In this document: one piece after another, positions 11,654 through 62,910 of the stretch
Layout: every line of letters starts with the position of its first letter
How positions within the stretch are numbered: the first letter of the stretch is position 1
DNA from: Polytrichum commune
Lineage: Eukaryota > Streptophyta > Polytrichopsida > Polytrichales > Polytrichaceae
NCBI GenBank assembly: GCA_950295325.1
Contig: OX485806.1
Coordinates: forward strand, 23,870,001-23,934,000
Length of the DNA stretch: 64,000 nt
Direction of reading: 5' to 3'
Notes under the pieces: model-generated
Told to the model about the DNA's origin: nothing
The model's input: the letters and a program-made list of their open reading frames with translations, nothing else
Database searches by the model: none
Position numbers and translations under genes: made by a program

Positions 11654-11659
11654 GTGTGG

Positions 11660-18326: not shown

Positions 18327-18345
18327 AAGAAGAAGAAGAAGAAGG
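18327..18345. repeat. (GAA)n microsatellite
   Basis: Six AAG/GAA units inside the second LINE remnant, which explains the lysine run in the overlapping ORF. Confidence 0.85.
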
Positions 18346-18998: not shown

Positions 18999-19000
<2 letters not shown>

Positions 19001-27500: not shown

Positions 27501-27660
27501 TTGTTGTGTAAATATAATCTTTAGAAGATGGAGAACATGAAAAACAAACCGAACAATGCCCACATACCTTGGTATACGAGGGTGTGTATGTTGCTTGAGA
27601 GTATAGGTGGCCCACCATTCAATCATGTGCGCTAGATATGTGGCCTGAAATATCAACAAG
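24560..27660. other. Transposon-like filler without an identifiable gene
   Basis: Contains the foldback at 25919. An open frame at 25556-25792 has no recognised family. A TATATAAG motif sits near 26658 in LTR-like surroundings. The stretch near 27525-27560 shares GGTTTGTTTTTCATGTTCTC with 53045-53064 in inverse orientation. Confidence 0.45.
25919..26132. repeat. Foldback element with about 55-bp arms
   Basis: Left arm CCTTAACATGTGCCTAACTT through GGTTCAAGGTCGATCCCTC; the right arm is its complement (ACCTTGACATGTGCCTAACTT) with a few changes. The arms contain a GGTTCAAGG...CCC segment that resembles a pol III B box, but no tRNA fold is present. Confidence 0.65.
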
Positions 27661-31239: not shown

Positions 31240-31475
31240 AGTATAGTTACAAATGAATCGGTTGAAATTCAAGGCTTCAGAAAAATTTCCCAATTGGTTT
31301 AGAGGAATTTAGAAAATGCGCCTCAAATTAGTAAAGAAATTAGGATTAGAATCGAAAGATGTCAACATGTAACCGGTTGGACTTGGAAACACTAGGGTCT
31401 TCACCAATTATGCCCCAACAGTCTCCCCGGACATTGCTCGTCCACCTTCACTTAACATTCACCCAACACTTTTAA

Positions 31476-31979
31476 GGGTCGCTTCACACATGAGCCAAGA
31501 GCCATGACCATGAGCTTTTGTGAGAGCCCCAAAGAAAGTGTCCAAAGGCCGTCCAACGCACCTCCAAAATCATGTAGTGTGGTCACGGACCCTCAAGTGT
31601 AGTGTGAAGTCATCATATGTAACCGGACCCTCAACTAAATGCTATTTCAATGGATTTCTATTCACGTGGTCCTCACACATGATAAAATAGAATAAACCAA
31701 CAATTACGAGCGTTCGGAGTGCCATGGTCTCCCAGTTTTGCGTTGAGCCTACCTCCAGGAGGTGGTGTTTGAAAATAATCCAAGTGACCATGAAACATGA
31801 TCCAGTCGATGCCATGTATAGATCCACATAGACTTCACATCCACTGTGCATTCACATCCTCCGTTGGTCCCTCAAGCATAGTACGAAGCGAACTTGGATT
31901 GGCTCCGCCTTTTTCCACCAATGACAGTGCTTGAAGTGTCATGGTCACGGGCTCTCAGTCTTGTGTGTGGAAGTGGCCC
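31476..31979 (-). mobile_element. PIF/Harbinger (Tourist)-like MITE, copy A, 504 bp
   Basis: Ends are inverted: GGGTCGCTTCACACATGAGC at the left, and the complement of the right end begins GGGCCACTTCCACACA. It is flanked by TAA on both sides (31473-31475 and 31980-31982). An inverted copy with the same termini and a TTA duplication lies at 62288-62768. It contains a 69-codon frame also open in that copy. Confidence 0.85.
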
Positions 31980-31982
31980 TAA

Positions 31983-37779: not shown

Positions 37780-38292
37780 TTTCAACCTCTGGAGCATTCA
37801 CCTCCCCTCCGCTCTGCTGCCTCTCCCCAGCCTTCTTTCCGCTTCCGGGGCCCTGTGCCCCTCTTTCTTCTCCTTCAGCTTTGGCCCAGTTTGGTTCAGA
37901 GCGGAGTTTTTCTCGGTCGGTCGTTGTGAGGTGTGAAGAACGACAAGAAGCAGCGGAGGGTGGTGAAGTGGAGTTCTGGTGGATCTAGTTGAAGTTGAAT
38001 TCACCAATAGATTACCGCTGCAGCTTGTTCCAAATCGAGCATTGTGTGTGTGTGTGTGTGTTCCGCGTCTGGACACGGTTACTGTGAAATAAGAGGAAAG
38101 TAAGAAGCAAAAGAAAACGAAGTGCAACGTCCAGCGGAGAAGAGAAGTGGAGTTCAGCAACAGGAGGTCCAGGCGTGGTTTGCGGTACTTACAGTGCAGT
38201 TTGTTTGTGTCAAGCTGTGAGCCAAATCCGAGCTCTCTCTGTGTGTGTTTCTTGCCTGAAGGGGAAAGAAATAAGCCCAAAAAAAACGCAAA
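37780..38292 (+). promoter_or_regulatory. Probable 5' UTR and proximal promoter of SDC
   Basis: The region is pyrimidine-rich (CCTCTGGAGC, TCTTTCTTCTCC stretches), contains a short GT run near 38044-38060, and has no competing long ORF in a coding style. I see no convincing TATA box. The assignment rests on position just before the SDC start. Confidence 0.4.
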
Positions 38293-41200
38293 ATGGTGGC
38301 CACCGTGGAAGATGCAGCAACTCGATGTGTGACGTTGCCACCGTCGCCGGTGCTGAAGGCCTCCCTTAAGAGGTCCCTGCCGTCTCTAACGTCTCTTCCT
38401 GGCGCTGCCTGTCTTCCAGAGGACATCCCTCTAGACTCCCTCAAGAAAGTAGTCCCTCCGCTCGAAAATGAGCTGCAGACCACCACTGCTGCAAAGAGTA
38501 CTCGTGGTAAGGACACCAAGAAATTTCATCTCGGAAGAAACTTGCACGCTAGCTGCTTGGAAATCACGGAGCCGGACATGGACGATGAAATCACTGGCGA
38601 GAAAGATGCGTACATGGCCAGTGTTCTTGCCCGCTATCGCAAAACTTTGACTGAGAAGACGAAGTATCATCTAGGTGCGTATCCAATTTGTAACTTCGTG
38701 CCCCTACTTAACAAGTTTGTCATCAATCGCTATCCTGCTTTACGAGCTCCCCTACGAAAGTGTGAGTGCTCGGTAAAGATGGAGTTAAAAGATCGAGACG
38801 TTATTCAAAATTGAAGTATACTTTGAAAGACACGCCTTGGTCTGATCCGGTCTTCACTTTTCTGCAATCAGTCAACAAAGACGTTTTGCCTATTGGTAAC
38901 TGGTCAGAGCAGGAACACGCTGCAGGTCTCATTAGTTAGTGCAGCTTAGGACCTACCGACTTGACAAAATCCTGGACGGTCGTCTTGATGAATTTCTTTC
39001 AGTTGTCACTCTCCAAGGCATTTCTTCTTCCCACCACAGTTTCTTTCCATCCATGCGGCTGTTCATCTTACTGTGCATAGGGATCCAATATTCTTTCCTA
39101 GTTGCTGTCGTTGTGGATGAGCCGTGGGTTATATCCCGAACTTGTCCAACTGGTCATAGTCGTCGAGTTGTGGTTAGTCCACTTGGTTAGTCGCTGTGTA
39201 TCAGGAGACGAATGTATCCTCGCCAATGTTGAGAATACGTCAGTCGATTGTTGTCTCGGTCAATTCCAGCTGATTTTCAGGTGTAGGTTCTTCGAGCTTC
39301 TGAATTTAGACCATGGTAATACCTGTTGCATCTTCAAGAGCAAGCCTCATCGTGGCTTGACTGCTCGCTATCTTCATGCTTTTGTTTGCATTTTTGTGTG
39401 GTTGTCGAGTCTACTACCGCCTGAATGTGCTCCAAATGGCTGCAGGATATCCTTACAACCTGGACTTCGATTACGGAGCTCTGTCACAGCTGCAGCACTT
39501 TTCCATCAACAACTTAGGGGATCCGTTCATCGAAAGCAACTACGGCGTCCATTCCAGGCAATTTGAGGTAGGTGTGTTGGATTGGTTTGCAAGGTTGTGG
39601 GAGCTGGAGAAAGATGAATACTGGGGTTACATCACCAATTGCGGCACGGAAGGCAACCTTCATGGTATCCTCCTCGGGTAAGCGTTGATGTTCTCCACAG
39701 TAGATGTTTTCTGACACCAGTCGTTTTTGCATTCCTGGACCTGTAGTTTTCTGAATGTTATTACTGGAGAAATTGTCAATATATAGTTAGCCTTGGTTTG
39801 GAAACAAATTTCTCTGTGCGAATACTACATCTCCCAGAGGACACGTTAGGATAGTTGGGTCGTCCAACTTTGCATTCAACTCCTTACAAATATGGCTGTT
39901 TTCCTAGTTCTTCTTGATTCTAAGTAGAGCATGGTCAATCATTCCAGGAGGGAAGTTCTTCCAGATGGCATCCTCTACGCATCCAGGGATTCGCATTACT
40001 CCGTGTTCAAAGCTGCCCGCATGTATCGCATGGAGGCTGTGAAAGTGGACACTCTTTTGTCGGGGGAGATAGATTGTGCCGATTTTGAGCGCAAGCTGAC
40101 CGAGAGAAAGGACAAGCCTGCTATCTTGAACGTGAACATTGGTAACTAGCTAATCCCAAACTCTTTGAAGTGATTTTGTCTTTGTGGAATCAGGTTCGAT
40201 CGTGTGGAGTACGTTGCATATAGGATGTTGATCTGCCATTTACTGAACAGGGGTATTGGAGTAATCTTTCGTCGATTGCTGGTTTGTGTAGGCACAACAG
40301 TTAAGGGTGCCGTGGACGATTTGGACTCGATTATTAGAATTCTGGGAAAAGTGGGTTACACAGAAGACCGTTTCTACATTCACGTGGATGGTGCACTCTT
40401 CGGGCTGATGATGCCTTTCGTCAAAAAAGTAAGTTTCAATTGTCCTAATGAACAATTCTTGAGTTGTTGTTTAAGTAGTCATTTTTATAGAACATAGTCG
40501 AATTTTGAGATTTTATTCTGGAATGTCGAACACGTCGGATATGCTTTAGTAAGATGGTTTGAAATGAGATTGGTATCAGACATGTGCAGTGTAAGCTAGA
40601 TTGCCTGCTGAAGATGATTCGGTTGTGCAGAGGACCACACTCCTTCATCTTTTGATCGATATGTTTGTCCTAGAAAAGTCTGTTCGGGTGCGCAATGCCG
40701 ATCTCAAAATGTGGTGCTGCTACGTGCCATGAGGTAAACAGTTTGCGTATGGTGCATGAGACACAACTTCCATGTGGCGAAAGTAGAGAAGCACGGTGTT
40801 TACATTTCTGGTAGGTACAAGCTAGAAAGAGAACATCGTGGGACTTCTACTCGTGACTTGACAGATATCCAACCGCTGACGCCAGTTGTGCACCGGAGTA
40901 GCTGGCGATTCAAATATCTTACCAAAATCAGATGTAGAGATTTAGTCTTAGGATCCTCTCTTACATGTTCTAACCCATTATTACTACGCATTCTATCTTA
41001 TTAAAGGGTACTTGGGATCTGCGGTACATTCGAAAGAAGTCATTATCCGGAGAAGTTCACGAGGTAAGTGATCTAACACAGTTAAGGAGAGCGTCCATTC
41101 ACGTACGTCCCACAATGAAACATCCTTTTGATCTACCTCTCGTATTTTTTTATCTAATTTTCTTGTGCTTTCCATTTGTAAATACAGTCTAACTCAAGTT

Positions 41201-42301
41201 CTTCAACGTTTTGTTTCTAGCCGTTCGCTGTGTCTGGTTTTGTTGGAGGACTATGAGCAATTCTCACTAATGCTGGATTTGCCTGAACTTCTGCAGGCTC
41301 CCAAGGTGTCATTCAAAAAACCCATTGGTAGTGTAAGTGTGTCGGGTCACAAATTCGTTGGCTGCCCGGTGCCGTGTGGGGTTCAAATCACTAGAATGAA
41401 GCATATTAATGCACTCTCCCGTAATGTTGAGTACTTGGCTTCTCGTGATGCAACCATCATGGGAAGTCGCAACGGCCATGCGCCAATTTTCCTGTGGTAC
41501 ACTCTGAACCGGAAAGGGTATCATGGTTTCCAGAAAGAGGTCCAGCGGTGCCTTCGTAACGCACACTATTTAAAAGAGAAATTGCGGGAAGCCAAATTTG
41601 GTGTCCTTCTTAATGAGCTCAGCAGCACAGTGGTGTTTGAGAGGCCGAATAATGAAGAATTCATTCTCAAATGGCAGCTGGCATGTCAGGTTGGTGACTA
41701 TTTTCTTTGATGCCGAGTTGTTTTTTTTTTTGCGAATAATCTAATCTATTTTTAATACAATCACTCCAAGAAACCTCGGGGTGGTACTTCCATTTGCTTT
41801 TGTAAAGCTATATTGTAACTGCATTCAGGGTGCCGTGTATTATATTTACAGGTTTGATATTCTAGCTTGTGCTTGTTTACAAAATCTACTGTTCTACAGC
41901 CTTCATACGTACACGGAACACAACTGTGGTGACTATTTAGTGAAAATGTTACTAATTCAACTAGACAATTGTTGTAAAGTTACACCCGGTGCCTTGCGAA
42001 AATAGTGTTTCTAAATTCTTATGTTTGACCTCCTTGTTGACAGGGTAAAATTGCCCATGCGGTGGTCATGCCAAGTGTGACTGTGGGGAAACTGGACGAT
42101 TTTGTGGAGGAGCTTGTTGAGGCTCGTAAGCTCAATTTCCCAGATGGAAACGTGATTGTCCCCTGTATTGTGGAGGAGGTCGGTCCTCAGAATTGCGCCT
42201 GCTCTCTCCACCGTGGTGCAATAACTACTCCTCCCAAGGCAGAAAAACCTGTGACTGCGCCGCATCAAAATGGAAAACAGGTTATGGGACCTTTGCACTG
42301 A
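38293..42301 (+). CDS. SDC: Serine decarboxylase (PLP-dependent, group II decarboxylase), 6 coding exons, 531 aa
   Basis: Exons: 38293-38674, 39446-39677, 39948-40141, 40292-40428, 41297-41689, 42044-42301. All introns are GT-AG, phases agree, and the total is 1596 nt including TGA. Known role: decarboxylates L-serine to ethanolamine with pyridoxal phosphate, feeding phosphatidylethanolamine and phosphatidylcholine synthesis; the plant enzyme is soluble. Seen: TNCGTEGN and [18 protein letters not shown] (cofactor-binding region), [31 protein letters not shown], and SGHKF with the Schiff-base lysine at residue 334. The C-terminal part carries [17 protein letters not shown]. The first 127 residues are less conserved in appearance and the protein is somewhat longer than the roughly 480-residue Arabidopsis enzyme, with extra sequence at both ends. 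The start is the ATG at 38293, which opens exon 1 in frame. The older annotation name 'histidine decarboxylase-like' refers to the same family. A decayed copy of exons 3-6 lies 6 kb downstream. Confidence 0.95.
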
Positions 42302-45900: not shown

Positions 45901-45990
45901 GGTCCAGAATTTGTCAGAAATATTGTTTTCGAACTACACTACACTACGTGCTACACCAAAGAGATGCCCTTCGCCAGGAGATTTCAGGCC
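42931..45990. other. AT-rich intergenic DNA
   Basis: Includes a fragment TACACTGAATATTGTATTTA near 43900 of the 27670/29607 MITE type and a C run at 45121-45132. No gene is evident. Confidence 0.45.
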
Positions 45991-45991
45991 A

Positions 45992-46044
45992 CTTCACACA
46001 CGAGCCAAGAGCTGTGACCATGAAATTCTGAGAGCCCAAGTCTT
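45992..46044 (+). mobile_element. Terminal fragment of the copy A/B MITE family
   Basis: GGCCACTTCACACACGAGCC followed by AGAGCTGTGACCATGA and GAGAGCCC matches one end of the 31476 and 62288 elements for about 50 bp. The rest of the element is not present here. Confidence 0.65.
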
Positions 46045-46172
46045 CATTTATTGGTATTATTATTTTTTTCTTCTCTTCTTTTGTGTTCTTCACTTTAGTC
46101 CTACTGTGTTACTGGCTCCATTGCCAGTTTAAAAGAGCTATTGCTTTTAAGGGTTTAGTGAGGTACATAGTA

Positions 46173-46272
46173 TACATAAGATTTGGGCGAACCAACCCAT
46201 ACACTCGTTCTTTGTTGGATGTTTAAACCCTTGTCTCCAAGGAACCAGTGTACGGGTTGCTTCGCCCCAACC
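46173..46272. repeat. Small foldback repeat
   Basis: GGGCGAACCAACCCATACAC at the left and the complement GGGGCGAAGCAACCCGTACAC at the right are inverted. The left arm recurs, inverted, as ATGGGTTGGTTCGCCCAAAT at 61990-62009. Confidence 0.55.
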
Positions 46273-46824
46273 GTATACATGATGGATAGTTGTTTTTTTT
46301 TTTCTCCTGTTATGTGTATATTTTGGAAGTCCATTGCACATCAAGTGTGCATTCCTTGGCAAATGCATGATGGTGGTCCTCAATTACCACCCCGTCCAAC
46401 CCCGATGTATACACATGTGGGTCCTTTGTTAATACAATTTTGAAGGCTACTGCACCCATCATGCGTTCCATTCAATTCTCATGTAACAAACTTCTCATAG
46501 GTTTATCACCAACTTTCACACTAACACTTATAAATCAAAACAATGAGTTGAAGAACTTGGTTTATTTTCTTTGTAATGTCAAATTACAAACATAGACCAA
46601 GTAGGTCTTGGTCTAAGCTCAACCACCCGACCATAGGAGAGAGACAAAAAGATCCTCTCTCCTCCCCCGAGCTTCCTCTTATGCCAAAGGCACTACTTTT
46701 ACAATCTACTTTTACATATAGTAAAAATATTCTATTCATAGCTTTATTTCTTAGTTCTACTATGAATCTTCTATCTTTGGTTCTTCTAGAACCTTCTTCC
46801 ATCTTTTATCTCAATCTCATTCTT

Positions 46825-47180
46825 CCAATTGGTACTGTCTAATTCCAATTGGATTCATCCATCCTTCCTTCTAGTTGGAATTGTCTAATTCCAACTAACT
46901 TCATCCAACCATTCTTCTAGTTGGAATTGTCTAATTCCAACTAGATCTATCTATTCATTGAGAGTTGTCTAACTCCAATGAATAGCATTTATCTTTCCAA
47001 TTTTGGAGTGGTCTAACTCCAGTGCACCTCATCGAGAGTTGTCCAACTCATGTGCGCATGTTCTCAATATGGAATGGTCTAATTCCAATGCACTAAATGC
47101 GGAGCTGTCTAACCTGTTGTCAATCTGGAGTTGTCTAACTCCAATCGATCTATCTTCAACTAGAAGTTGTCTAGCTCCCA
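46825..47180. repeat. Array of about ten small hairpins around a GTCT loop
   Basis: Units share the core GGARTT-GTCT-AAYTCC and are spaced 26 to 46 bp apart. The best unit, 46916-46945, has a perfect 13-bp stem around GTCT. Others are 46825-46852, 46872-46897, 46953-46983, about 47003-47021, 47035-47050, 47069-47087 and 47126-47143; units near 47101 and 47161 are decayed. Stems alternate GGAATT/AATTCC with GGAGTT/AACTCC, and the flanking arms also change together (TAGTTGG/CCAACTA, ATTCATTG/CAATGAAT). It contains no convincing ORF. Two weaker units occur near 61603-61640. Confidence 0.8.
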
Positions 47181-48218
47181 TCATCCTCTGCTTACACACT
47201 AGCACATGTGGTTAGAATTTTTCAATTATCCATCAATATTTGTAGTTACTTTACATCTGCTCTTCGGGTTGGGCTACTTTATTGTGCACTACAAGGTGTT
47301 TGTTTGATACAGTTTTTGAGTTCCATGTTCCATAGGACAAAACGTTTGATACCTATTTAGCTAGTAGTTCAAAGTGGATTTCTTTTGGATTAAAAGGCCT
47401 ATTTCACTCATGATTTACATTTTCTACATGTGATGGCTTTATTCACCACATTAGATTCAAAAGCTTGGTTTCAATAAATTATTCCATTATATAGCCTACC
47501 GTTTGCACATGTGTATTTGTGTTTCTACATGTACTTCTCATGTACGTGGGGAGTAATTTCATAATCACCTGCATCGCTTCTAGTTGTTTTGGATGCCACT
47601 ACGTGATCCACCAATTTCTTTTTATTTATCCTTGATCTTTATGTAATTGTGTTCTCTAGTTTGCCTCCGCATTTCTTGTTGTTCTGTATATATGCTCGCA
47701 TTTTATGGAATCATGGTCATCGTGTACATGTTCATTTGTGAGTAACCAAGAATTTCATTTTTCATTTCCTTTTGTTTTGTTGAATGTTTGAAGATCTTGG
47801 GCATTCATTCCCAACATATCTTGCATAACGTTGCATCGTTGCTCCTCTATGTGACAAGCACAGTTTGCAAGCCCCCTTGTGGAGTGACCACCATCACCCC
47901 CTCCCCCTCTAGATCAGGACCTTGACTTTCAACACACCTCCACGACCTAGGAAAACATGAGATATGTTGATGGTTGTGGCCCCACCCCAAGGTGGTCTTA
48001 TGTGTAAATTCCACTTCGCCCCCTTCCGTTGTTTTTCCTTCAACAGAGGCCTAGCATTCAACTCCCCGTACTTGTACCTAACTTTCCATCTTGTGTTTTT
48101 CCATATGTTGTTGATCTTGATCCCAAGCCTATTGGTCTGCATGATTGTGAACCTCATTTGGGCTTTGCATCGTTGCGGATCCAATTTCCAGTGTCCGATG
48201 ATTGGTGTTGACACAAGA

Positions 48219-48382
48219 TACAAGGGGGGTTTACAACATTCCCTTTTGGCATAATTCCCTCTTTTGTGTGGGAAAAACGTAAGAATTCCCTTCAAAAGGA
48301 GGGAATTATGTCAAAGTGGGAATGTTCATAGTGGGAAAACCATCCCCTTTCCCATGCGGGAATTTCCCAAACGCTCCATGTG
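48219..48382 (+). mobile_element. 164-bp MITE, copy 1 (at 5' edge of SDC pseudogene)
   Basis: This 164-bp unit matches 50444-50607 along its whole length with scattered substitutions. In the copy at 50444 the ends are inverted (CACAAGGGGGATTT at the left; CACAAGGAGCATTT is the complement of the right, 12 of 14 equal). It also has subterminal inverted segments around GGCATAATTCCCTC and GAGGGAATTATGTC. It carries no ORF. I could not identify a clear target duplication. Its right end touches the first base of the pseudogene homology. Confidence 0.75.
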
Positions 48383-49950
48383 AAGGAAGTTCTCCAAGAT
48401 GGAATTTTGTATGTATCTAGAGATTCACATTACTCTGTTCAAATCTAGCCGTATGTATTGCATGGAGGCTGTGAATGTGGATACACTTCTGTCACGGGAA
48501 ATAGATTGTGTTGTGGGTGTCTCATTGGACTGCATCTTGTTGCAGACATGCATTTTAATTCATAATGAGGTTTGATGGAAACAACAAAGTGTTATGTATT
48601 TCAACCATTGTACGTAAGGCTCTTTGAGATTTGCAGGCACAATTGTGAAAGGTGTTGTGGACGATCTGGATCTGATTCTCCGCACATTGTAAAATGTTGG
48701 ATATACGGAGGATCGTTTTTACATTCATGCGGATGCTGCCCTCTTTGGATTGATATTGATGATATGCCCTTTGTTAAGAGAGTAAGTGTACTTCGGATGG
48801 ATTCATTTTTATCTAGTGAAGTGCGTAGTGTGATTGATACTACACCAGTTGAGCACAGTTAAATTTGTGTGCCTCCAAGAGACATCATGTGATCTACATT
48901 TCATGGCAGACTTGACAGTGCTTAGGTTTCTATCTGGTAGCTGCGCATCGGGTTCTAGGAGGTCTGATGATTTGCATATCCGTGAAATTTGACTGTCTTG
49001 CAGTATCTCATTGAGGGGACCTAGAGTGTAAACTCCTGACACAGGTTTCATCTGGATTTGTGCAGGCTCCGAAAGTAGCCTTCAAAAAACCAATTGGTAG
49101 ATTTAAGTGTGTCAAGCCACAAATTTGTGGGTTGCCCAATGCCTTGTGGTGTGCGAATTACTAGAGTGGATGGTATATATCAATGCACTCTCACGAAATG
49201 TTGAGCACCTGGCTTCTCGAGATGCCACAATCATGAGTAGTCGTAATGGCCATGCTCCGATTTTCTTGTGGTACACCCTCAATCGTAAGGGATACCGCGG
49301 GTTCTAAAAAGAGACCCAGCGATGTCTCCATGATGCTCATTCTTTGAAAGAACGATTGCGGGAAGCCAACTTTGGTGTCCTGCTAAGCGAGCTTAGCAGC
49401 ACGGTGGCATTTGAGAGGCCTCTGGATGAAACATTCATTCTCAAATGGCAGCTAACATGTCAGGTTAGAAATCCAGTCTTCCTGTCTCCTGCATTTATAA
49501 GTTGGTGAAAGTCGCAAATTAGCCTGCTGTCATACCGTCCATGAAATTGTTAGCTGGGGTTGGTAATCTGTTGTGTGTGTGTGTCAAAAACTGGATGTCA
49601 GTTGTGGGAAACGGAAGTCAGGTAATGAGTAGGAAACATGCATATTACAAATAGGAACCCCCTATGTATACAATTTTGTAGCTACATAATGTTGTGATCA
49701 CTTTCTTCTGGAACCTGGATGATTCTAGACACCATTTCTCTTTGTTTTCGAGGGAAAACTGCACATGCAGTGATCGTGCCAAGTGTAACTGTAGAGAAAC
49801 TGGATGATTTTTGTGAACGAACTTATTCAGGCCCGGAAGAATGCTTTCCCTGCTGGAAACGTGATTGTTCCTTGCATCATCGAGGAGATTGGTGCTGCGA
49901 AGTGTGCATGCTTGCACCATCAAGGTTCAGCTACTACAAAAACGAGTAAT
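48383..49950 (+). pseudogene. Degenerate duplicate of SDC exons 3-6 with introns retained
   Basis: Four blocks match the SDC gene at 38-42 kb: exon 3 part (48383-48511), exon 4 (48637-48780), exon 5 (49065-49461) and exon 6 (about 49752-49950). Splice donors remain after exon 4 (GTAAGT) and exon 5 (GTTAG), so this is a DNA-level duplicate and not a retrocopy. Exons 1-2 and the last third of exon 3 are missing. Breaks seen: a frameshift plus TAG in exon 3 after [11 protein letters not shown] and a small insertion in exon 4; a shift in exon 5 that puts the region of the catalytic lysine out of frame; TAA replacing the glutamine codon after GYRGF; and an extra T in exon 6. The exon 6 acceptor AG lies one base inside the old exon. 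No functional enzyme can come from it. Confidence 0.92.
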
Positions 49951-50443
49951 TAATTAAAGAGTGAGAATTAGTCGAGCAAATATACGCTCCATCTGCTCCA
50001 AATTGAATCAGTGGAAGCTTTTTAACTTGTTTGGTGGCCTCAGGTCTTACATATGCTGTGGACAGTTTCAAGCACCATAGCATCCCCTCCCATAAACATC
50101 TCATTATGGGGTGTGGTTCGCATCAATGCCAATTGCAAGGGACAATTTTTAGCTGCTACTTGCTGCCATAAGCCCCCAATTAATACAAGAGGGTATAGAT
50201 ATAGGTTGAATTAATGTGAACAACAGCTGTGCAGATATTCACAATGTTTAGTGAACGCTGCAATTGTCACAGCAAAACAACTGAGAATAAATAGTGTAAG
50301 TGTTTTGTACTTGCTCAAAAAAATTGTTTTTGGAGGATTGGGTAGAGGTGCATCCCTCGTGTAGTTAGAATACCCCTGGAAGTACGGGAGGCTCGATTTG
50401 TTGCAGTATGGACTTTGGAGACTGACTTTGATCCCAGGAGGCC

Positions 50444-50607
50444 CACAAGGGGGATTTACAACATTCCCTTTTGGCACAATTCCCTTTTGTGTGTGGGAAA
50501 AACTTAAGAATTCCTTTCAAAACGAGGGAATTATGTCAAAGTGCGAATGTTCATAGTGGGAAATCCATCCCTTTCCCCATGCGGGAATTTTCCAAATGCT
50601 CCTTGTG
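50444..50607 (+). mobile_element. 164-bp MITE, copy 2 (downstream of SDC pseudogene)
   Basis: Same length, orientation and internal palindromic layout as the copy at 48219-48382. The left terminus reads CACAAGGGGG and the right CTCCTTGTG. It lies about 500 bp after the last recognisable pseudogene exon. Confidence 0.75.
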
Positions 50608-50987
50608 AGGGAGTTTATAGAGCTACAACACTAATTCATGGAGGAAGGTGCAATGTCCGGGAAGAACCGGTATTTAGTGTAATGGCGGCCGGTTGGTTTT
50701 GTGAAAAGTCCAGTTGAATTGGGGAAGTGGAGGATGTGAAACTGGTGCTTTTAAAAAAAGAACGGATTTCAACTGGCAACCATGTTGAGGAGGATTTTTA
50801 CCTGGATGAATTGTGAAATAGGCGGATTTCATCTTGTTTGATTCATCTTGGGCCAGAGATCAAATGGTTTTAGGGTTTAGGTTATGTGTTCGTTGTAGGC
50901 TTGTAGTGATTTGGTGAATGGCGGACAGGCGAAGCTTTTGCTTCATTATTGCATTTCATTGTTGACGGCTAGCGTTTAGAATGTATT

Positions 50988-51167
50988 ATGAGTGTGTCTA
51001 TGGACGATCTTCGTGGTGATCTTGATAACGTACTAATGGAAGCCATAGTTTTATGGAGGAACTCTACAAAGTTTAGATGGTTGTTTTCACATCCACAAAG
51101 ATACCTTTCAGGGCGTTTTCCTCTTGAAGGTGTAGATGATACTGCTGATTTTGACTCTAACAGTTGA
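50988..51167 (+). CDS. Small ORF, 59 aa, unrecognised
   Basis: ATG at 50988, stop TGA at 51165-51167, with an in-frame TAG 15 bases before the ATG. The peptide starts MSVSMDDLRGDLDNVLMEAI and ends VDDTADFDSNS; it is acidic overall with a central basic/aromatic part (WRNSTKFRWLFSHPQRYL). A 15-codon upstream ORF (50918-50965, MADRRSFCF...) precedes it. The residue mix looks more protein-like than the surrounding random frames, but I recognise no family. It could be an exon remnant. Confidence 0.3.
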   Translation: MSVSMDDLRGDLDNVLMEAIVLWRNSTKFRWLFSHPQRYLSGRFPLEGVDDTADFDSNS

Positions 51168-51169
51168 TC

Positions 51170-53845
51170 AATTTCATTTTTGTATACAGTATGCTATGTT
51201 AGGTTACTCTTTTATCATGTTGTGGCCTCAAATCTAATATGAGGTTTTAAGACCTAGGTATGATAGAACAGTAAATCCATGGCCATCAACTGGTTGATGC
51301 ATTATTTCAGGTTCAAATCCTACTCTGGATAAATTGTTGATCATTGTTGTTGGATGTTGATATCATTACATATTATTGTTGTATGTTGATATGTTCTTTG
51401 GATGTTGTTGTTGAATGGTGTATGTTGTTTGTAGATATAATTTTGCTACATTAATTGGAAAACCAGCTTACTTATCAATGCCCAAGTTTATGGCCGGTTG
51501 TCATTACAATGAAGAGGAAATTAGCCGGCACTTTAAAATATATATATATAATAGTGGCCGGTCCAAATTAATGACAACAAGTTTGCAACCGGTCAAACCC
51601 TGAAGAAAAAAAACCCGGTAGAAGTTGTGAAGGAGCCGATTTTAGCTAGTTGAGCTCAAAAATCTCCCGACCCCTGCGTATGGTAGGTGGTGTTTGATAT
51701 TATTCTTATTGTCCTAGTAGTTGGACAGAGGCAATCATTTTCTCCATCAATTTTTATCCTCTCATATCTTATGTCAAATGTTGTGAATCCAAGGGCCAGC
51801 TCTTTTTTTAAACTTGTTTGAGCACTGGTGCAAATATGTAATGTTAAATTGCTACATTATTTTCTGGGTTAAATCTGGCTATTCCTGTTGTCTATTTCAC
51901 CTGTCTTGAATGCGAACCGGACATATATTTGTAGAGCTTCGGGTGCAGGAGAGGCACATGACATGCACGAGTCAATCAGGAAGGATTTTCATGGCGAAAT
52001 GAAGCCAGCTTTACTAGAGACGTTGAGGTTGAGAAATTAAAGCACGGAGCCTTCGTTTTAGTGAAGAGTCTCTCATTCCACTTTTTCACCCAAGTCCACT
52101 TTTCATTTGAGCTTTTAACTTGAGAGCTTGGATGGTGTACCAGGCTTATAATGTTTTGTGGATGCCTGAATGAAAGTAACTTAACACTAGTGTTCATAGT
52201 TACACTCATGTGAATGGGAGCTCATTTCCCTTGCCTTGATCTTGTTTTACCAAGCTTCAAAGCAAAGGTATTTCCCTCCTTTTACAAGGTGGATTCCAAA
52301 TGTCTTGGTGAATCCCATATGGAACAGATAGATAGAAACTCCGGTCCCTATTTAAAGGGGCCGGCGTGAATGAAGTGTCCGTTCGTATTGTCAAATGACC
52401 CGATGCCCACCAGACAAGGGGAAATTTGGACAATACCCCATATGGAACATCTACGATACGCACTCAATATCTTTTGACAAGCTCTCGGTCAAAATGCTAA
52501 GCTTCTTTGTGGAGGTTGCTTACGAATGTCAAGAGTTTTAGCATGCTGTTGTTTGTCATGAATTTTATGTTGCTTAATATCCAAACCTCCCTTATAACTC
52601 ATTTTGAGCTAAATCACTTTACACTCACTCAAACTACTAGTATACTAAATAATTATATTACTATGGTCCCCAATAACTTACTAGAGCCACGTTGAATTTC
52701 TAGTAGAAAATTAGCATGGGCCTATAAAATTAATGTAGGTGATTATTTCATTTTATGTTACTTGTTCGGAAGTCTTTATGAAGACTTAGGTGGAGACATG
52801 GGGTCTTGGACCCATGTTAAATTCCATCTTGACTAGAAAATTAATGTGGCATGTGCTAATTATTCCAGGCTAATTTTCCACCCACACTAATAGGAATGTT
52901 TATTGTAGCTTGATATTGGTCAAACTCACTATAGTTTGAGAGTTTGTCAAACATAAATATCAAAGCCCTACAAATATTTTCAAGTTCAAGCTCTCAACTT
53001 TAGCTCTGCTATAAACAGAGCCTACGGTATATGGGTGTTATTTGGTTTGTTTTTCATGTTCTCCAACTTCTATTGATTAGATGTACACAATGTAGCTTGT
53101 GTAGCATTTGGAAATGTGCTCTACAACATCATCAAAAATCATATTGAAAATTGGAAATACCTTGATTTTATTGTTATCAAAATGCATGTTTGTTGAATGC
53201 GTGGATCCTTCCAATTGTGTTCACTATTGAATGTGGAGTAGTTGATAAAATTTGAAGACGTAGCGCAATCTCTTTTGAACTTAGTCCTATAGTGTTTGTT
53301 CTTTATTCTCACCTAACCATGCACCAATCAAATACATGCATCTGATTGCAAAGAGTGACTGAATAACACCCACATATCTTGAAGGGTTGAGAATGATTAC
53401 CTTGGAAGTGGCAAGAGAGAGAGAAGACATGTAAATGACAGATGCTTCACCCTTATGTATAGGCCAAAGGTGACAAAACTCACATCCAACAATTGTCATT
53501 AAGGGCAATTGAGTTTAAATGTTTCCCTACCATCTCTCCTACCGTACATGTGGTGCTATTGAGAGAACCTCCACCTCTATATATACATTCATAATTGTTG
53601 GATCGGCTTAGGAATTAGCTTATCATTCATTATACAATCACAAAGCATGTTGTCATTTAAGTTTCAAAAATAAAGTTGAGACCTTGCATATATTATAAGA
53701 GGGTAAAGTGAATATTTAACATAAGTCATCTCAAGTGTGTTAATTGTTGGGTTTTAGAACGGTGTCCGTATTTAGAGCTTATATGGTAGACAAACCCATT
53801 TCCAATTCCCCCCCTCCCCCCAAAACTCACTACATAGAATCTCGT
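51170..53845. other. Intergenic, no gene identified
   Basis: Includes the dispersed-repeat piece GATAGATAGAAACTCCGGTC at 52326. The minus-strand frame 53287-53508 resembles nothing I know. Confidence 0.45.
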
Positions 53846-53945
53846 AAAGCCATGTAGTTCCACACGTGTAGCCATCGTTTTCTAACATGATGGAAAAAGC
53901 CGTGAAGTTCCACACGTGTTGCCATCCCATTTGGCATGATGGGAA
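53846..53945. repeat. Two-unit 50-bp tandem duplication with CACGTG boxes
   Basis: Unit 1 (53846-53895) and unit 2 (53896-53945) both carry AGTTCCACACGTGT and a GCATGATGGGAAAA/ACATGATGGAAAAA end. Each has a CACGTG G-box core. No gene start is recognisable nearby. Confidence 0.75.
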
Positions 53946-54699
53946 AAGTAAGCTAAAAGAGCATGGATGTGGGTTGGGAGAGAATCTTGCCTTTGAACAT
54001 TTACGGTAATTTCAAAACTTGGAGATGAATTGTGATTTCTTTTGTTACAGTGTGCAATAACAATTTTCATACCTTTAAAAACTCACTCTAGTATCACACT
54101 TGTACTACACTTATGTGAAATTGTTTACGGTGGATGAAAATGGGTGCTACCTTCATCCAATCTCACCGCAACACGTGGCATTTTGTTGTCCATTCTTGGC
54201 CACCAAACATAGACTTCCAATCAAACAATAGTACTGATGACACAAGGCCCACCTACCTTAGATGGATAGAATTCCAAAATTCAATTGATCGAAAAGAAGG
54301 AATCATGTATGTTGTACTACTATTGAATGCCTGATCTACTATGAGGAGATTCCAAATAATTTCTACGTGTTTGCATACTACATAGCCAGGTCCTCGCAAC
54401 AAGAGTATAGTACAAAGCAAGAGTTTGGTTGAAGTTTACGTATTGTCAGACATAGCTTGATATTTGGTCCATGCACACAGTGATATATTTCTGGGCTGAT
54501 GGGGATATGCAATGGCCACTACAGGCCCCATCTAAATGACATGTGGACACCACGCGGCAGATCTTTGCATTCACCCTCTATTGTCTCATTTTAGTTGCTC
54601 TGCTTCACTGTTTGATTTAACTTTACATGTTTCATTGTTTTTTTTTGGGGGGGGGGGTGGGTTATATTTCACTATTTCTTAATGATAAAAGGGTGGCTT

Positions 54700-57600
54700 A
54701 AACCATGGCCTTGACCCAGAGGTTAAGCCACTAATACACAATACACACACAATCTTAATCCCTATTTGACATCGAAACCGCCACCCAACTAATACAGATT
54801 GCAATTCCTTCCATCCACACACCGCCACCCTCAATCACATACGAATATCAACAAACCCAACAACCAAAACACCATCACCAAGCCCACCAGTCTACGATTG
54901 CAAGGATTGAGATAGATATTTGCACTTGCCACTCCAAGTCTCAGGATCATCGCATGCACTAAGGACTTCTCCACTCAATACGATCTCAAGCATAACTTGT
55001 TGGACAACCTGCTCGATGACTTGCATCCATGTAAACATGCATCATACTACAAAAAGCCCTTCTTGAAAGTCCCTTCCATCATATGGGAACTCCTACTTAT
55101 GAAGCCTCACAACTAGTAGCAAACCAATATTTATCCATTGAGTCCCTCATAGTCATGACCTCGACATTAGCCTCAACATCAACCCACCTTGCAACCATCC
55201 CCATACCAGTATCAACAACCCCAACAAACAATGTCCCAAAAGACTTGCACCTATAGCCACCATCCCCATAAGAGACTTTGCAATAGAACATGGCCAAGAG
55301 AGGCTCGATCAACAAGACCTATAAAGATAAATACAAAGCGGCCACACCAAGGAAACAAAGGCCCACCAACTTGGAGCAACCAACAACAACAACACATCAA
55401 ACATGCAAAAAAAACAAGTAGGTACCACCAGCCCCCTGACCCCACACCAAGATGAAGACATTGACATGCAATTGGAGGCAACCACATCTGAACACAGTGG
55501 TAGCTTGCTACAACTGTCCAAGCCGCCAACAATGAGAGAATAGTTGTTCATTAAAACACCCCCCCCCCTTCACCCTCTCCCACAAAAGCCCAAGAACATG
55601 AGACACACGCCATGTCCACATTGCTAAACATGTCCAACTCCTCCGAGCATACCACACCCCACACATTATATACACTTGAATAGTCTCCATAAGGCCCATA
55701 CCAACACAATGCAACACTACCCTCCAAAATGGACTCCATGCACGTAAGTCTTGCTATACTAAGATGATTACATAATCTCTCACCTTCATTTGATCCCCCA
55801 TTATTATTTGTCCTGTCACCCAAGCACCACCAAGCTCACTACTGCCCACGTAGGATAACGACTTGCACAAGAACTATATGACCACATAGAATTCAACATT
55901 TTACAACACCACCCCTCTACAATCATCATTCCAATGACTAATCCCATCCTATCCCATAAAACTAATAAAAGAATTCATCAAAGTTTTATAACCAACACTC
56001 AACTTCTCACATAAATCACACCAAACCATGAGCTCAACATTAATATCAACACCAATCCAACATACAAACATATACCCAAACCCCATCACATGGCTCACAT
56101 GGAATTGCGGGCACTTGAGCACAAGCCTTTAAGACGTCCACCAACTCACCATCATAAATGATATACCATCTTTATTTCTATTTAAATATGAAATATAAAA
56201 AACCCGAAGATAAACCCACGATATCGATATATTTATTTATTTATTTCATCATAGAAGATCATATACAACAACACATTAGATGCACTCACATGCATTAGGC
56301 GCCCTTACATACAATACGCCCCAACAAGAGGAGGATTTATCACTATGATACACAAATCAATCACCTTCTCCGGTAACATCACCAAAATAACAACTCCTAT
56401 CAAAAATCACCACTTTTCTACAAATTATTACATTAGCCAATAAACCTCTCACCCCCATAGTATTAATCCACTTATATACATGTCAGCACATGAAGAGGGC
56501 ATACATATAATCTTTGATATCCAACAAATAATTAAACAAACCCTAACTACCCACTCAACACACTTCTCAATCCTCATAGGGGACTTTAACCAAAACATAT
56601 TCATCATTGGATGATGTAACCAACACTCCTTGATTCAACCAACCAATGAGGATAGAGAATGGCAAATTTTTACAGCCAACCTCCAACCCGCATTAATTTT
56701 CAACACATCAACATTTTGAAGACAAGGGGGACCCAACTATAACCACACTAGCCTCATAGACGGGTTCTATAGCCTCAACTCCAACTCAATGTACCAAGTA
56801 TGTCACATCAACACGCAATTACACCTCAATTCATACCACTTCCTAGTAATCCTCCACCTCCCATTGTAGTTCCCATTTCGCATACCTCTTGCATCACCAA
56901 TCAACACAACCCCCTATTTCATATACCCCGTATTGGAAACTACTATCCAAGCTTTCTTTACTAAATTGAATGAATTGAACTTCATCAACATCCAACAACT
57001 TACCAAACTATTATAAAAACCCACTCCCCTCACCCCCAAAAAATGGACATAAGCACCAAATAAAGGCAAACTATCATAAGCTCAATAAGTGAACGTGGCA
57101 AGCAAACATGTATTGCACCTCCACCCCTCTTCCTCACCCCAAAAACGAGACCTCAAGGGATTTCCTACCCCGTAAAGTACAAAAACAATGGAAAAAACAA
57201 GTCAACACCTACCACCTCATGAAAAATGCCATCACATCCACCACATTCCCACTACCCCCTGATTGATACCTTAAATCATAAAATTAAAACATAACAAACT
57301 CTTGCAACCTAACCCCGCCACCCACCACTTCCATCCCACTGGAAATACAAAATTGGTTCGACAACATAGCTAACATAGCAAAAGTGCCAAGGCATAAGCC
57401 TGAACAATACCCACTTCACAAACCTCCCCAAATTGAAAAAAACAATAAAAATGTATAGAGCTCTTCTAAATAAAAACCAAAAATGATTCACAAAATAAAT
57501 ACAATACCCTATATAGACAAATGGTTCTCCAACACAAACATACACATAAAATGATCATATCTATTATGGGATGTCCCTTAAATTATTGATGCACAAACAA

Positions 57601-58500
57601 CACAAACCCTCAAATTTATGAACGCCAGTAACATTAAAGACCGCACACCTGAGAACACCATGCCCTCATGGCTACTCCCATGCACATGATATTTACCAAG
57701 ATGTAAATACCCAACTCGACTTAGATCCAATATATTATGCATCTTAGGGCATGCCCAGGAGAGATAGTAAGCAACCCGCCAAAAATAATGTATTATATGG
57801 TGTTTAGGGTGTTTGGGGAGCCCTCCATCTTGGGCGGGGCAACTCATCTTGAGTCAGAGCCCACCAAAGCCTAGGCATACCCCCGGTATAATTAGGAAGC
57901 AATCAATAAGACAACGACACCTATTATCTGACATGGGATAAAGTAGGATATCGGAGTATCTGATATTAAAGTAATCTCTTGGCGGGCCGGAGGAGGGTTG
58001 CCATATGAACCATTTATGGCGTTGGAAGGCCTTTACTATACCCGGGCTGGTTCTAAATTATGCCGGTACCGCCACCTAAGAACCTGGGATGCCCCATTTT
58101 TGGCATTGGCATGCCCCATGGCGAGGCTGCTGGGGACGCCCTTAGGAGCCCCACCTACAAATAAACCACCCTTCATGCCCAACCCAAACTTCAAAGTACA
58201 AATCTTTGAATTCACTTACTGCAATGATAGGTTTCCCGCATGAGCCACCAACCGAAAAGTTGATAAACACACCATTCTCCACCTACTCCTATCCCAACTA
58301 GGGTGGATAGTACTACCACCCATTATAATTATGGCAGGAATAAGGGGCACTATACACACAACAATTGTTCAACTCCTCCAACTCCTCCAACTCCTCCAAG
58401 ACCTACAAACCCCCAACTCTAAATCCATAAACTAATGGAATCTTTCTCACAAATTGTTGTAAGGTACCCAACACACATAATCCTAAACAAAAAGGAAATA
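54700..58500 (+). mobile_element. Decayed LINE of a second lineage: ORF1-like, endonuclease and C-terminal parts
   Basis: The sequence is C- and A-rich and full of stops, yet translation in shifting frames gives an ordered LINE-like series. There is a DFSTQYDLKHNLLDNLL segment near 54960-55015 and QLVANQYLSIESL near 55115. ILIGDFNQNIF near 56570-56600 is the GDFN endonuclease motif. GGPNYNHTSLIDGFYS near 56725 and SYHFLVIL near 56835 stand where the SDH motif belongs. FEFTYCNDRFP near 58205-58240 is followed by a segment like IMAGIRGTIHTTIVQ near 58330. No intact ORF remains. The ORF1-like 5' part is repeated at 60945-61365. Confidence 0.68.
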
Positions 58501-60106
58501 AGAAAAGAAACAAGCCCCGGTCCCACTTAGCTAAACACACTTACTAACACTAAAACCCAACACTAGCATAGAACACATATCCTTATTACTAACGACACGG
58601 TCCACCTATGAAAATAGGCACTAAGCCACCCTCACTCTCATGTTCACGCGGACACGAGGGAGATGGTGAACAAACATCGCATATCGTGGAATAGACTTTT
58701 ATTCTTTTATTCCTTTGTTTTCTTTCTTTGTACATATCTAGATGATTGTCCGTTTGTTTACCTACATCACATACCCATCTATCTACCATGTATTCATGAG
58801 CACGGACCATCTTAAAATACAAATAAGAGGTAGGTGGAGGTAAGACAAGGACCACACTACAAATTCATTAAGGCCACCTACATTGGTTTGTCCCATCAGG
58901 TAGTGCGGGTTGTCTTTTGGATAATTTTCATGATTAGTATTATTATTATTATTATTATTACTTAATAATAAAATTTTGTCCATAGATTATTAATAGCTAG
59001 AGTGCACGTCAAGGAATAGGAAATAATGTACTTGGTAAAGATTGGTATTCTCAACTAACAAAAAGCTATAACAGAAAAATACTTCCATTTGTAACCCATA
59101 CTGATAGCATATATGTATGAATCATTGTATTTTTTTCAAAACATACCAATAATGATTCATATGGATGCCATGTGCAACACATGCCAAAAACTACTCTCTT
59201 AACATGCAGGCATGCCCCACGTTTAGGCCCAGAGGGTGCACCTTTCATTAAGAACATGTACCATGTGCATTTGCAACACACTTTGAACATCGCCTACATA
59301 CAAGTTTGTTCTTGTAAAATTAAGCAATACACATAATTATTCAATGATGAAAAATACAAGTGACAATATGTATACATAAAACACTTACATTCATGTATAG
59401 TCATCAACATAAGTATACAAATATACTTTTGAATAACAATCAATCCCTATCATACGTATTAATGCAAAACCCTAGCAATCATAAATAAAGTCATTGAAAA
59501 CTTTTTCATCCCCTAGATATAACTCATTAGCATCTTAGTCTACAACATATATCGTAGAAGCTAATGCAATTAACGTTTCTAAGTCTATCATCAAATGATT
59601 AGTAAGATCATATGTCCACTTGTTGTTGGTTCCTTTTCAATACAATATAAGCCAACCTCCATATTTGATGCACGGTCCATCAAGTCTATTGGATCCCTAT
59701 ACTTCACCTAACAATTGCCAAACTTTCTATACATCTTATAAAGTCTAGTCACACATAAACCCAAGCACAAATGTGTTGAGTGTTGAAAGCTAAATTCCAT
59801 GTAAGATACTCTTGACCAATGTGGATATGACACGTGTCATAGATAATACCAAAATGAATCATTTTGTGCTGAATCAACCAATATCCTACAATATTGAGAC
59901 CATACTTCTTTGGAAAGGATCGGTATCTTGATCAATTTGACAAACTGTGGGGAGCTCATGACACACTTTGTGAACCGTAGGGGGATATAATAAACTCCTC
60001 ATTTTTTGAAAGCATTTGATGTTTAACCCGAATAAGAATAAGATGATGATGATGAAGAAGAAAAATAGTATGGTGTGTGGAAGAATTTTAGTGCCATTCA
60101 CTTTTC
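58501..60106. other. AT-rich intergenic DNA
   Basis: Only the (ATT)n run is notable. Confidence 0.45.
58936..58962. repeat. (ATT)n microsatellite
   Basis: ATTATTATT run of about 27 bp. Confidence 0.92.
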
Positions 60107-60613
60107 ATGTTCACTCCACATTTGCAACACTATGGGCGCAATATCAACAAGTGGGGAAGTATATATGCTTTACTACATCACAACATGGTTTGTTTAACCC
60201 TCGTTGTGCACACGCAACTATGCTCTCTATCCTACATAACACATCATTGTCATTTCGCACCATCTGTCTGCGATCCATCAATACACAACAATGTTTGTTC
60301 ATTCGAATCAAAACTACATGAATTTATCTTCCTAGCCCATATGTTGCCACAAACAAAATCTTCTATGAAGTCGTTGCATCAAACTGCATCACCAAACCTA
60401 CTACCAAACTTCTTGCCGTCAGGCGCCGACCCCATAATTTCAACCAAATCTCTACCACCAACCATCAACAAAGATCTCAACCAATACGCATTTTCTCAAA
60501 CCATAAAGAAACTCCCCAAGCTATTCAACAATATTCCTCACACTCACAACGAGGCACATTGCCCCCAATCACTCCTATACCTAACCCTAAATTACAAATC
60601 CAAACTATCTTAG
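60107..60613 (+). other. 168-codon open frame, unrecognised, probably transposon-derived
   Basis: This is the longest uninterrupted frame outside the two genes besides 18133-18651. It is rich in His, Pro, Ser and Thr, has no domain I recognise, and lies directly before a LINE 5' remnant in the same orientation with the same C/A-rich composition. I infer it is part of that element and not a host gene. Confidence 0.3.
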
Positions 60614-60944
60614 TGTTCCCACATTGAACTCCAAAAAGAAAACCCAACTCTTACAACAACAACCTACACATGCCACCGCCAAGATCAGCAACACCGGCCC
60701 AAACATAACAAAAAATCCCGCATCTAAAAAAAATCATAATGACCACATCATAAAGAAAGAAAACACCAATTGATACAAACAAAACCAACCCCACAACATG
60801 GCACACTAGCCTCCTCATTCCTACCAATGCAACACCTTATACCTTTACCAAGACCACATTCTTGATTGCACACTTGCAAACTACCTTGTAACATAGCAAG
60901 GCATCCCCCAAACCTAAAAAAAAAACCAAATAGAAAACAATATC

Positions 60945-61565
60945 TTAGTCCATACACAATATACACACAACCTTCATCCTTACTTGGCACCAAAACCACA
61001 ACCTAGTTAATACAAATCGCCAAACCTTCCATCCACCCTAAATCACATGCAAATATCAACAAACCCAACAACCAAAACACCATCACCAAACTTGCCAATC
61101 TACAACTGCAAGGATCAAGATAGATTTTTGCAATTTCCACTCCTAGTTTCAGCATCACCGCAAACACTAGGGACTTCTCTGCTCAATACAACCTCAACCA
61201 CCACTTGTTGGACAACCTGCTTGACAACTTGCATCATACCACAATAACCCTCCCCGAAGGCCCCTCCCACCACACGGGCACTCCCACATGTGCAGTCTCG
61301 CAACTAGTAGCAATCCAATACTTATCCATTGAGCCCCTCACAATCATGACCTCAACATCAACCTCATTTTACAATATACCGAAACTTTGCCCTTCCTCAC
61401 GTACTACAACAACCCCTACTCACTTGCATTCTAATACTCTCCCACACCCACCACACCACAAATACCCACCTTCCTACAACTCCCAGCAACACTCGTCCCC
61501 ACTTGCATCACCTCCCCCACCACACCCAACCCAACACAAACAAAACATACATCAAAATCCTTAAA
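60945..61565 (+). mobile_element. Second copy of the ORF1-like 5' part of the lineage-2 LINE
   Basis: 61060-61365 matches 54850-55190 at roughly 80 per cent by eye, in the same orientation (shared DFSxQYxLxHxLLDNLLD and YLSIEPL-type segments). It stops near 61565. A related C/A-rich stretch at about 60300-60720 may be additional sequence of the same element. Multiple stops are present. Confidence 0.65.
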
Positions 61566-61669
61566 GCATGGCACATCTAGCCCTGGTGCACTATTCATTA
61601 CTGGGTTGTCTAACTCAATTCCTCTTGTGAAGTTGTTTAACTCCGATCATCATTTACTCATATGCGAAG

Positions 61670-61671
<2 letters not shown>

Positions 61672-61701
<30 letters not shown>

Positions 61702-61702
61702 A
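61672..61702. repeat. (GATA)n microsatellite in a dispersed repeat
   Basis: About eight GATA units followed by GAAACTCCGGTCCCT. The same junction, with only two GATA units, occurs at 52326-52350, so the microsatellite grew inside a dispersed repeat. Confidence 0.9.
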
Positions 61703-62287
61703 ACTCCGGTCCCTTTTGCATATGCGAAGTACAACAAAGTATGGCTATCATTCTTTCACGATCTATGCAGAAAACTTACATAAAATGACAAACAACCGAG
61801 AAGAGCATAGTGCAAATGATATAAGCATTTTTTCCTCCTAAATTCAATGCACATCATAAGAGACCAAATTGCATAGAAACAACCATGATAGACTCCTCTA
61901 CCTATACTACTTTGCTTGAATAGAAAAAACCCGAATAAGGTCGTTTTTGACTATGCACTGTTGGAAAAGACCTAAGGGTGGTCTCTAAATGGGTTGGTTC
62001 GCCCAAATCCTCTCTAAATGGGGCCAAAATTTAACAACCAATCATATTCAACCACATATGGTGTTAGTAACTTGTCCTCCAAGTAAAGAGATTACTGATG
62101 TAAAATGACCTCTAAAATGAGGCAAACTTTCGTCTTGGCGAGATTTTCAACCTAAACTTACCACATACACAAGATAATAATAGGGCATATTACTCTTGCA
62201 ACTAAGCTTGCTTGTTAATATCAAATGACGATACAAAAGCAATTGGTGCAGTGTTTGGGCAAAACCGGTGGAGATCCTAGTAAGTTA

Positions 62288-62768
62288 GGGCCACTTCACA
62301 CAAGAGTCTGAGAGCCCGTGACCATTACACGTCAAGCACTCTCATTGGTGGAAAAGGTGAGGTCGGTCCAAGTTCACTTCACACTACGCTTGAGGGACCA
62401 AAAGAGTATGTGAATGCAAGATGGATGTAAAGTCTACATGAATTCCTACATGGCATCAAATGGAACATGTTTCATGGTCACTTGGACTATTTTCAAAAAC
62501 CACCTCTTGGAGGTAGGCCTAACACAAAACCGGGAGACCATGGCACTCCGTACACTCACAACCATTGATATATTCTATTTTGTCATGTGCGAGGACCCGC
62601 ATGAATAAAAATTCATTGAAATAGCATTTGATTGAGGGTCCGGTCACATATGACTTCACACTACACTTGAGGGTTCGTGACCACACTAGATGATTTTGAA
62701 GGTGTGTTGGGACGGCCTTGGGACACTTTCTTATGGTCACGGCTCTTGGCTCATGTGTGAAGTGGCCC
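62288..62768 (+). mobile_element. PIF/Harbinger (Tourist)-like MITE, copy B, 481 bp
   Basis: The left end GGGCCACTTCACACAAGAG and right end (complement GGGCCACTTCACACATGAGC) are inverted. It is flanked by TTA at 62285-62287 and 62769-62771. The whole element matches copy A (31476-31979) in inverse orientation. Confidence 0.87.
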
Positions 62769-62910
62769 TTAGGGGCACTTTATATGAGGGCCCATTTCTA
62801 GGGCCCATTTCCAAACCCTAGTATGAGCCCAAAATGGGGGCTCACATTTGTTTTATGCTTAGAATTTAGTTGAAGTTGCATTTGACGTCATTATTGAAGC
62901 ATCAAAAAGT

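Follow-up and report, generated by a model that had tools for sequence, protein, structure and literature searches.

A tandem array of ten palindromic units in Polytrichum commune, possibly the relic of a transposon-type docking array

A row of ten palindromic units, each arranged around a GTCT or GTCC core, occupies positions 46821-47188 of the window, the 64,000-nucleotide stretch of Polytrichum commune DNA analyzed here. The array is real, and the stretch that contains it folds in clear excess of shuffled sequence. The reading that we favor, tentatively, is that the array might be the relic of a transposon-type docking array in which some arms were re-matched by template switching.

All the units lie on the + strand, and their core Gs are found at 46837, 46883, 46929, 46967, 47011, 47041, 47077, 47107, 47133, and 47169. 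The resulting spacings (46, 46, 38, 44, 30, 36, 30, 26, and 36 bp) agree with the original prediction, which had placed ten units 26-46 bp apart here. Unit u1 (46821-46856) has matched outer arms but two mismatches in its inner stem. It is followed by u2 (46867-46902) and u3 (46913-46948), with an 11-bp and a 13-bp stem, respectively, closed by a GTCT loop, and by u4 (46951-46986), which combines a 10-bp outer stem with an inner 5-bp stem and one bulged base. Stems are 6 bp long in u5 (46995-47030), 5 bp in u6 (47025-47060), which carries a GTCC loop, 6 bp in u7 (47061-47096), and 7 bp in u9 (47117-47152); the stem of u8 (47091-47126) is broken, and that of u10 (47153-47188) contains mismatches. 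Units u1-u3 are tandem copies with a period of ~46 bp.

When up to three mismatches were allowed, the pattern GGARTTGTCTAAYTCC matched 14 places in the window, where 1.78 were expected from shuffles and none of 100 shuffles reached 14; nine of these 14 matches fall in the array. The original prediction assigned this pattern to every unit. It is exact in three of the ten, and the others depart from it by one mismatch (three units), two mismatches (two units), or three (u6), while u8 lies outside the matches at that threshold. The loop, predicted to be a constant GTCT, is nearly so: alignment columns 17-19 (GTC) and 21 (A) are invariant across the ten units, and the fourth loop base is a T in nine of them, u6 being the exception. 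As for the stems said to switch sequence while staying paired, the G-C/A-T switch at columns 14/23 does pair in all ten units, but each of the remaining five inner pairs is unpaired in one to three of the ten; the switch itself may reflect one or two events. Outer arms that vary and stay complementary were likewise proposed for the whole row and are present in u1-u4, with long matching arms nowhere else in the array.

The single-strand DNA fold of 46820-47190 reached -64.5 kcal/mol, compared with -24.7 kcal/mol (sd 3.65) in 100 shuffles. This comparison, which had been proposed as a check, thus gave a z of -10.9. Among 319 tiles of 200 nt on the + strand, the tile at 46801 was the lowest (z -10.2), followed by those at 14001 (-7.2), 19001 (-6.0), and 48201 (-5.8). 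With RNA energies, z was -9.4 for the + strand and -8.1 for the - strand (20 shuffles each). The array stretch holds seven stems of at least 6 bp, against a mean of 1.18 in 300 shuffles. In the right half of the array the core is retained but the stems are weaker, and the 120-nt windows starting at 47021 and 47141 showed no fold excess over shuffles, with z values of +1.0 and +0.3.

The feature extends beyond the span first reported. A hairpin-rich zone at 46570-47180 on the + strand comprises the array and a set of upstream hairpins, as indicated by the fold z values of -6.1 and -10.9 of its two parts and by stem counts. The upstream hairpins at 46570-46793 were overlooked in the original prediction, as was a motif pair at 61602-61644. 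A stem scan placed + strand hairpins at 46570-46590 (8-bp stem, loop GTCAA), 46593-46615 (9-bp stem), 46635-46663 (9-bp stem), 46710-46726 (6-bp stem), 46734-46767 (8-bp stem, 18-nt loop), and 46779-46793 (6-bp stem), and a weak one with a 4-bp stem, below the length of the scan, was seen in the folds at 46682-46692 on the same strand. The stretch 46540-46820 alone gave the DNA fold z of -6.1, and in 300 shuffles its six stems of at least 6 bp compare with a mean of 1.14 and its four stems of at least 8 bp with a mean of 0.08 and a largest count of 2. Stems of at least 7 bp were not in excess in the flanks at 46000-46540 and 47190-47800. In a hand-set list, the hairpin centers lie 24 to 52.5 bp apart through ~600 bp. 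The G content is 6.4% in the linkers (233 bases), a value lowered partly by construction since paired bases were left out, and 18.4% in the hairpins and 17.5% and 16.7% in the flanks; by hand count, G is entirely missing from the 122 bases of the eight linkers that lie between 46693 and 47003.

We considered the upstream hairpins as decayed units and rejected this, as their alignment scored 44, where shuffles averaged 43.2 and 236 of 500 reached at least that score, and the unit model gave at best 8.0 bits (E 0.11 over 323 bases). Neither the alignment nor the unit model detected any sequence shared between these hairpins and the units.

With the ten units aligned on the core, the mean majority-base frequency is 0.87 at -5 to +9; it falls to 0.50 in the flanks, close to the 0.45 of random sequence. 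The core figure is inflated because the units were picked by their core. The kept core covers ~16-19 bp, and no slot in the row is missing a unit. A conserved core between near-random linkers resembles an array of recognition sites.

A decayed copy of the right end of the array, with two motif copies, probably lies on the + strand at 61575-61677, judging from its alignment to 47107-47215 and from the unit model. The local alignment of the two stretches scored 66, where 1000 shuffles gave a mean of 31.5 and a maximum of 53, and with 47107-47215 as a query the second-copy tiles ranked first and second of 1260 (next tile 55). With the whole array as a query, the second-copy tile ranked fourth (62), behind three unrelated tiles (69, 65, and 65). 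A structure-based unit model gave E-values of 0.0098 at 61592-61627 and 7.6 at 61629-61644, and a sequence-only model gave 0.011 and 0.091 at the two 61.6-kb motif copies. Folding at this place was no better than in shuffles (z -0.3 to +1.6 in four tiles). On sequence grounds, the conserved core, the near-random linkers, and the probable second copy leave standing two earlier suggestions, a putative protein-binding array and a putative part of an unknown element.

Paired change was then compared with controls. In a whole-arm swap test on 11 pairs in ten units, 70 of 110 cells were Watson-Crick, with a swap mean of 58.8 (p 0.0033). The p value was 0.011 without u3 and 0.185 without u1-u3. The excess over arm swaps is thus found with all ten units and disappears without u1-u3, which means that the paired change, although real, depends on those three. 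In the ten-unit alignment, 77 of 110 cells in 11 pairs (70.0%) were standard pairs compared with 61.2% after shuffling (none of 500 as high), 11 cells had changed on both sides against 5.1 in shuffles (none of 500 as high), and six pairs showed double-sided change against 3.8 (40 of 500 as high). When only the six inner pairs were counted, double-sided change occurred in one pair, against 1.2 in shuffles.

These results suit a close rival to the docking array, a functionless palindromic minisatellite, which we regard as a possibility somewhat less probable. Slippage would have multiplied a palindrome and template switching would have kept or made matching arms, with no protein and no RNA. Units u1-u3 are indeed tandem 46-bp copies, and the paired change is concentrated there; such a minisatellite would also explain upstream hairpins of unrelated sequence. 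Moreover, the cited passages of PMC8794818 describe how template switching creates perfect stems and multi-base paired changes in single DNA events, by which stems are made or mended, as shown there by ancestral reconstruction in RNA genes. This route makes plausible the earlier suggestion that the units are rebuilt again and again. Set beside the hairpins in those passages, the array offers one weak case, u4 versus v1. Nine of the ten bases in the 5' arm of u4 agree with v1, which has no matching 3' arm; this is a weak match given that 24 arms were tested and that 3 of 300 random 10-mers reach 9. Against the minisatellite, a neutral array should diverge evenly, yet the core here stands at 0.87 and the linkers at 0.50, and a second copy at another place suggests an element that was mobile or duplicated.

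The same data bear on a structured RNA, in which the zone, putatively transcribed, would form hairpins whose constant array loop is recognized or that protect the RNA. We consider this unlikely. A constant loop on varying stems, the excess of standard pairs over shuffles, the RNA folds of both strands, and the G-poor linkers would all be compatible with it, and the upstream hairpins are the chief reason why it stays alive. RNA made from the + strand would favor G.T, but the 132 cells of the ten units and the two at 61.6 kb contained 9 G.T and 17 A.C mismatches of the wobble type (two-sided binomial ~0.17). As G.T is not commoner than A.C, selection on + strand RNA is unsupported. The six inner pairs likewise show no more double-sided change than shuffles, the second copy does not fold above shuffles, and no match to an Rfam family anywhere in the window reached gathering scores. 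The earlier proposal that the fold was kept as RNA gained no support from the G.T and A.C counts, the dependence of the excess on u1-u3, and the folding of the second copy.

Hairpins or cruciforms might instead be the recognized feature in single-stranded or supercoiled DNA, for example during transposon replication or excision; we hold such a DNA structure element to be quite improbable. It would accommodate similarly spaced but sequence-unrelated hairpins over ~600 bp, the strong excess with DNA energies, and wobble-type mismatches without strand preference. Units u5-u10 keep the core while their stems weaken, whereas selection on structure would be expected to do the opposite, and the Pfam scans of 19001-64000 found no transposase or replication domain.

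The upstream hairpins are the least explained part of the zone. They lack the unit sequence, so a sequence-specific protein would not explain them, which counts against a docking array; they fit template switching or selection on structure. With 17 hairpins, the upstream ones unrelated in sequence, a spacing of 24-52 bp, and G-poor linkers, it is conceivable, if improbable, that the whole ~610-bp zone keeps its fold and not its sequence. It would then represent an undescribed kind of poly-hairpin element, acting as RNA or as single-strand DNA, of which the GTCT units would be only the shared-loop part.

Hairpins at element ends are known from Tam3. In soybean CACTA elements, as far as the cited passages of PMC2613891 describe them, the repeats of the Tgmt* borders form 12 stem-loops on the right (732 bp) and two on the left (159 bp), and each border has one further stem-loop unrelated to the repeats; in Tgmt* and Tgm1, the repeat sequence varies by family, and the arms consist of a single 17-bp motif in direct and inverted orientation. 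The zone is like the borders in those passages in being an asymmetric non-coding stretch of several hundred base pairs with many possible stem-loops, and the CACTA trait of a reiterated motif able to form stem-loops is present in the array, its subterminal position being putative. Unlike the borders so described, it has several upstream hairpins with unrelated arms, the TTGGCAG motif is absent from the zone, and a terminus pair, a target duplication, and a transposase were not found in the scans.

Arabidopsis VANDAL elements, in the cited passages of PMC5735166 and PMC10398659, carry short VANC target motifs in fast-changing tandem repeats of their non-coding part. The VANC6 motifs given there, AGTTGTCC and AGTTGTAC, resemble the array core, and the trait of a short tandem motif in a non-coding stretch is present here. 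The only occurrence of AGTTGTCC in the window is at 47037 within u6, which is weak evidence as it concerns one of ten units. AGTTGTCT is found in u4, u9, and u10, AGTTGTAC in none of the ten units, and YAGTATTAY is absent from the zone. Unlike VANDAL elements as these passages describe them, the array is palindromic and hairpin-forming, properties not mentioned there for VANC arrays, and no VANDAL gene was found here.

Around the zone, no CACTA terminus pair with a 3-bp target duplication was found within the window. Two terminus pairs matching at 12 of 13 positions enclose the zone (16575-52377 and 45990-62764), with CACTT/CACTC instead of CACTA and without target duplication, and a single CACTA at 46519 has a best partner of 10/13. 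Scans for a target duplication together with an inverted repeat, in nine combinations, gave only chance-like pairs among the matches listed. At 45987-46021, a 35-bp stretch corresponds to the ends of the inverted-repeat element present at 31473-31982 and 62285-62771, and a partner for it that would enclose the array was not found. Pfam scans in six frames, with E up to 0.1, covered 19001-64000, and two ORFs were scanned in 1-19000; no transposase, VANDAL, or VANC domain emerged. The scans of 19001-64000 returned only Pyridoxal_deC and one weak unrelated match, with no replication domain there and no Pfam domain in the array stretch. A non-autonomous transposon copy would lack the TNP2-type transposase gene. 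Since neither matching termini with a target duplication nor a transposase domain was found, we do not claim CACTA or VANDAL membership; the array would work like those. The original prediction held that it matches no nameable repeat class; the cited passages on soybean CACTA subterminal stem-loop arrays (PMC2613891) describe a similar anatomy.

Several other origins were tried and rejected. For a known RNA family, the ten permissive Rfam matches in 46500-47250 were all far below gathering scores. For a viral array, the two-copy pattern retrieved 18 stretches in viral contigs, several of them near-identical, which in our own reading contained no palindromic array and had coding-phage-like letters. 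The single motif was found in 65 stretches of viral contigs and a slightly longer motif in 14 of bacterial or archaeal genomes, with one match each. The unit model gave 72 hits over these 79 loci, two of which lie on one contig, and at most one hit per locus, so a viral or bacterial origin was rejected as chance. No link to the neighboring decarboxylase copies was found, as they have no sequence in common with the array at E 1e-6 and the weakest-level search gave one 27-base match (E 0.43). Full-text searches of the literature with the motif letters returned unrelated papers only, and searches on palindromic plant satellites with compensatory change returned nothing relevant.

The array lies between a decarboxylase piece at 41132-41710 (Pfam Pyridoxal_deC, E 1.1e-9), which we take to be a plant serine decarboxylase, and partial second copies at 48382-49912. 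Decarboxylase pieces span 38275-42300, and the partial second copy in 48220-50612 has a stop where the first reads Q. This second copy is flanked by 168-bp direct repeats (48220-48387 and 50445-50612, 91% identical) that are themselves hairpin-prone (tile 48201, z -5.8). A hairpin at 13999-14060 has 28 continuous pairs and a 6-nt loop, and the fold energy of 13981-14081 is -55.7 kcal/mol (z -9.1). Candidate identities for this hairpin are a small foldback element, a recent template-switch product, and a microRNA-like precursor. The inverted-repeat element at 31473-31982 and 62285-62771, presumably Harbinger-like, occurs as opposite-orientation copies that are 82% identical, have ends like GGGCCACTTCACACA, and are flanked by TAA or TTA. 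Opposite-orientation copies at 27216-27568 and 53026-53369, 68% identical over 364 aligned positions, are probably a small transposon family. At 61659-61731, two copies of CATATGCGAAGTA enclose GATA repeats and GAAACTCCGGTCCC, an arrangement that resembles a small insertion and its target duplication, and 52326-52352 carries an end sequence in common with it. The + strand is G-poor over 54501-61500 (7 to 19% in 500-base steps), where no Pfam domain was found, and a ~440-bp repeat is present at 54734-55175 and 60952-61366.

Taken as a docking array, the row would be a worn, non-coding fragment of a dispersed element, the likeliest candidate being a DNA transposon. Its short palindromic sites in tandem would once have been occupied by the DNA-binding protein of that element, in a mode of working like that of CACTA subterminal arrays with their TNPA-type proteins or of the VANC-bound arrays of VANDAL. 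Tandem duplication would have raised the number of sites, the ~16-19-bp core might have been kept by constraint through use or by homogenization, and template switching at DNA hairpins may have re-matched the arms in some units, yielding paired change without RNA. What argues for a docking array is the contrast between core and flanks, the unbroken row, the probable dispersed copy, and the 46-bp tandem u1-u3, together with the absence of a G.T preference and, within the cited passages, the similar soybean CACTA anatomy, the VANDAL tandem motifs, and template switching. The missing enclosing termini with a duplication, the missing transposase domain in 19001-64000, and the fourth rank with the whole-array query argue against it, and so does the weakness of the single u4 arm match on which its template-switch part rests.

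If the array is a transposon docking array, paired changes in DNA palindromes can mimic RNA covariation without any RNA, which would call for caution in covariation-based RNA discovery in plant genomes. The row, whose left units have strong stems and whose right units retain only the core, would then offer a natural series in which binding-site constraint could be separated from re-matching by template switching. If the fold itself is what has been kept, the zone would represent an undescribed poly-hairpin element.
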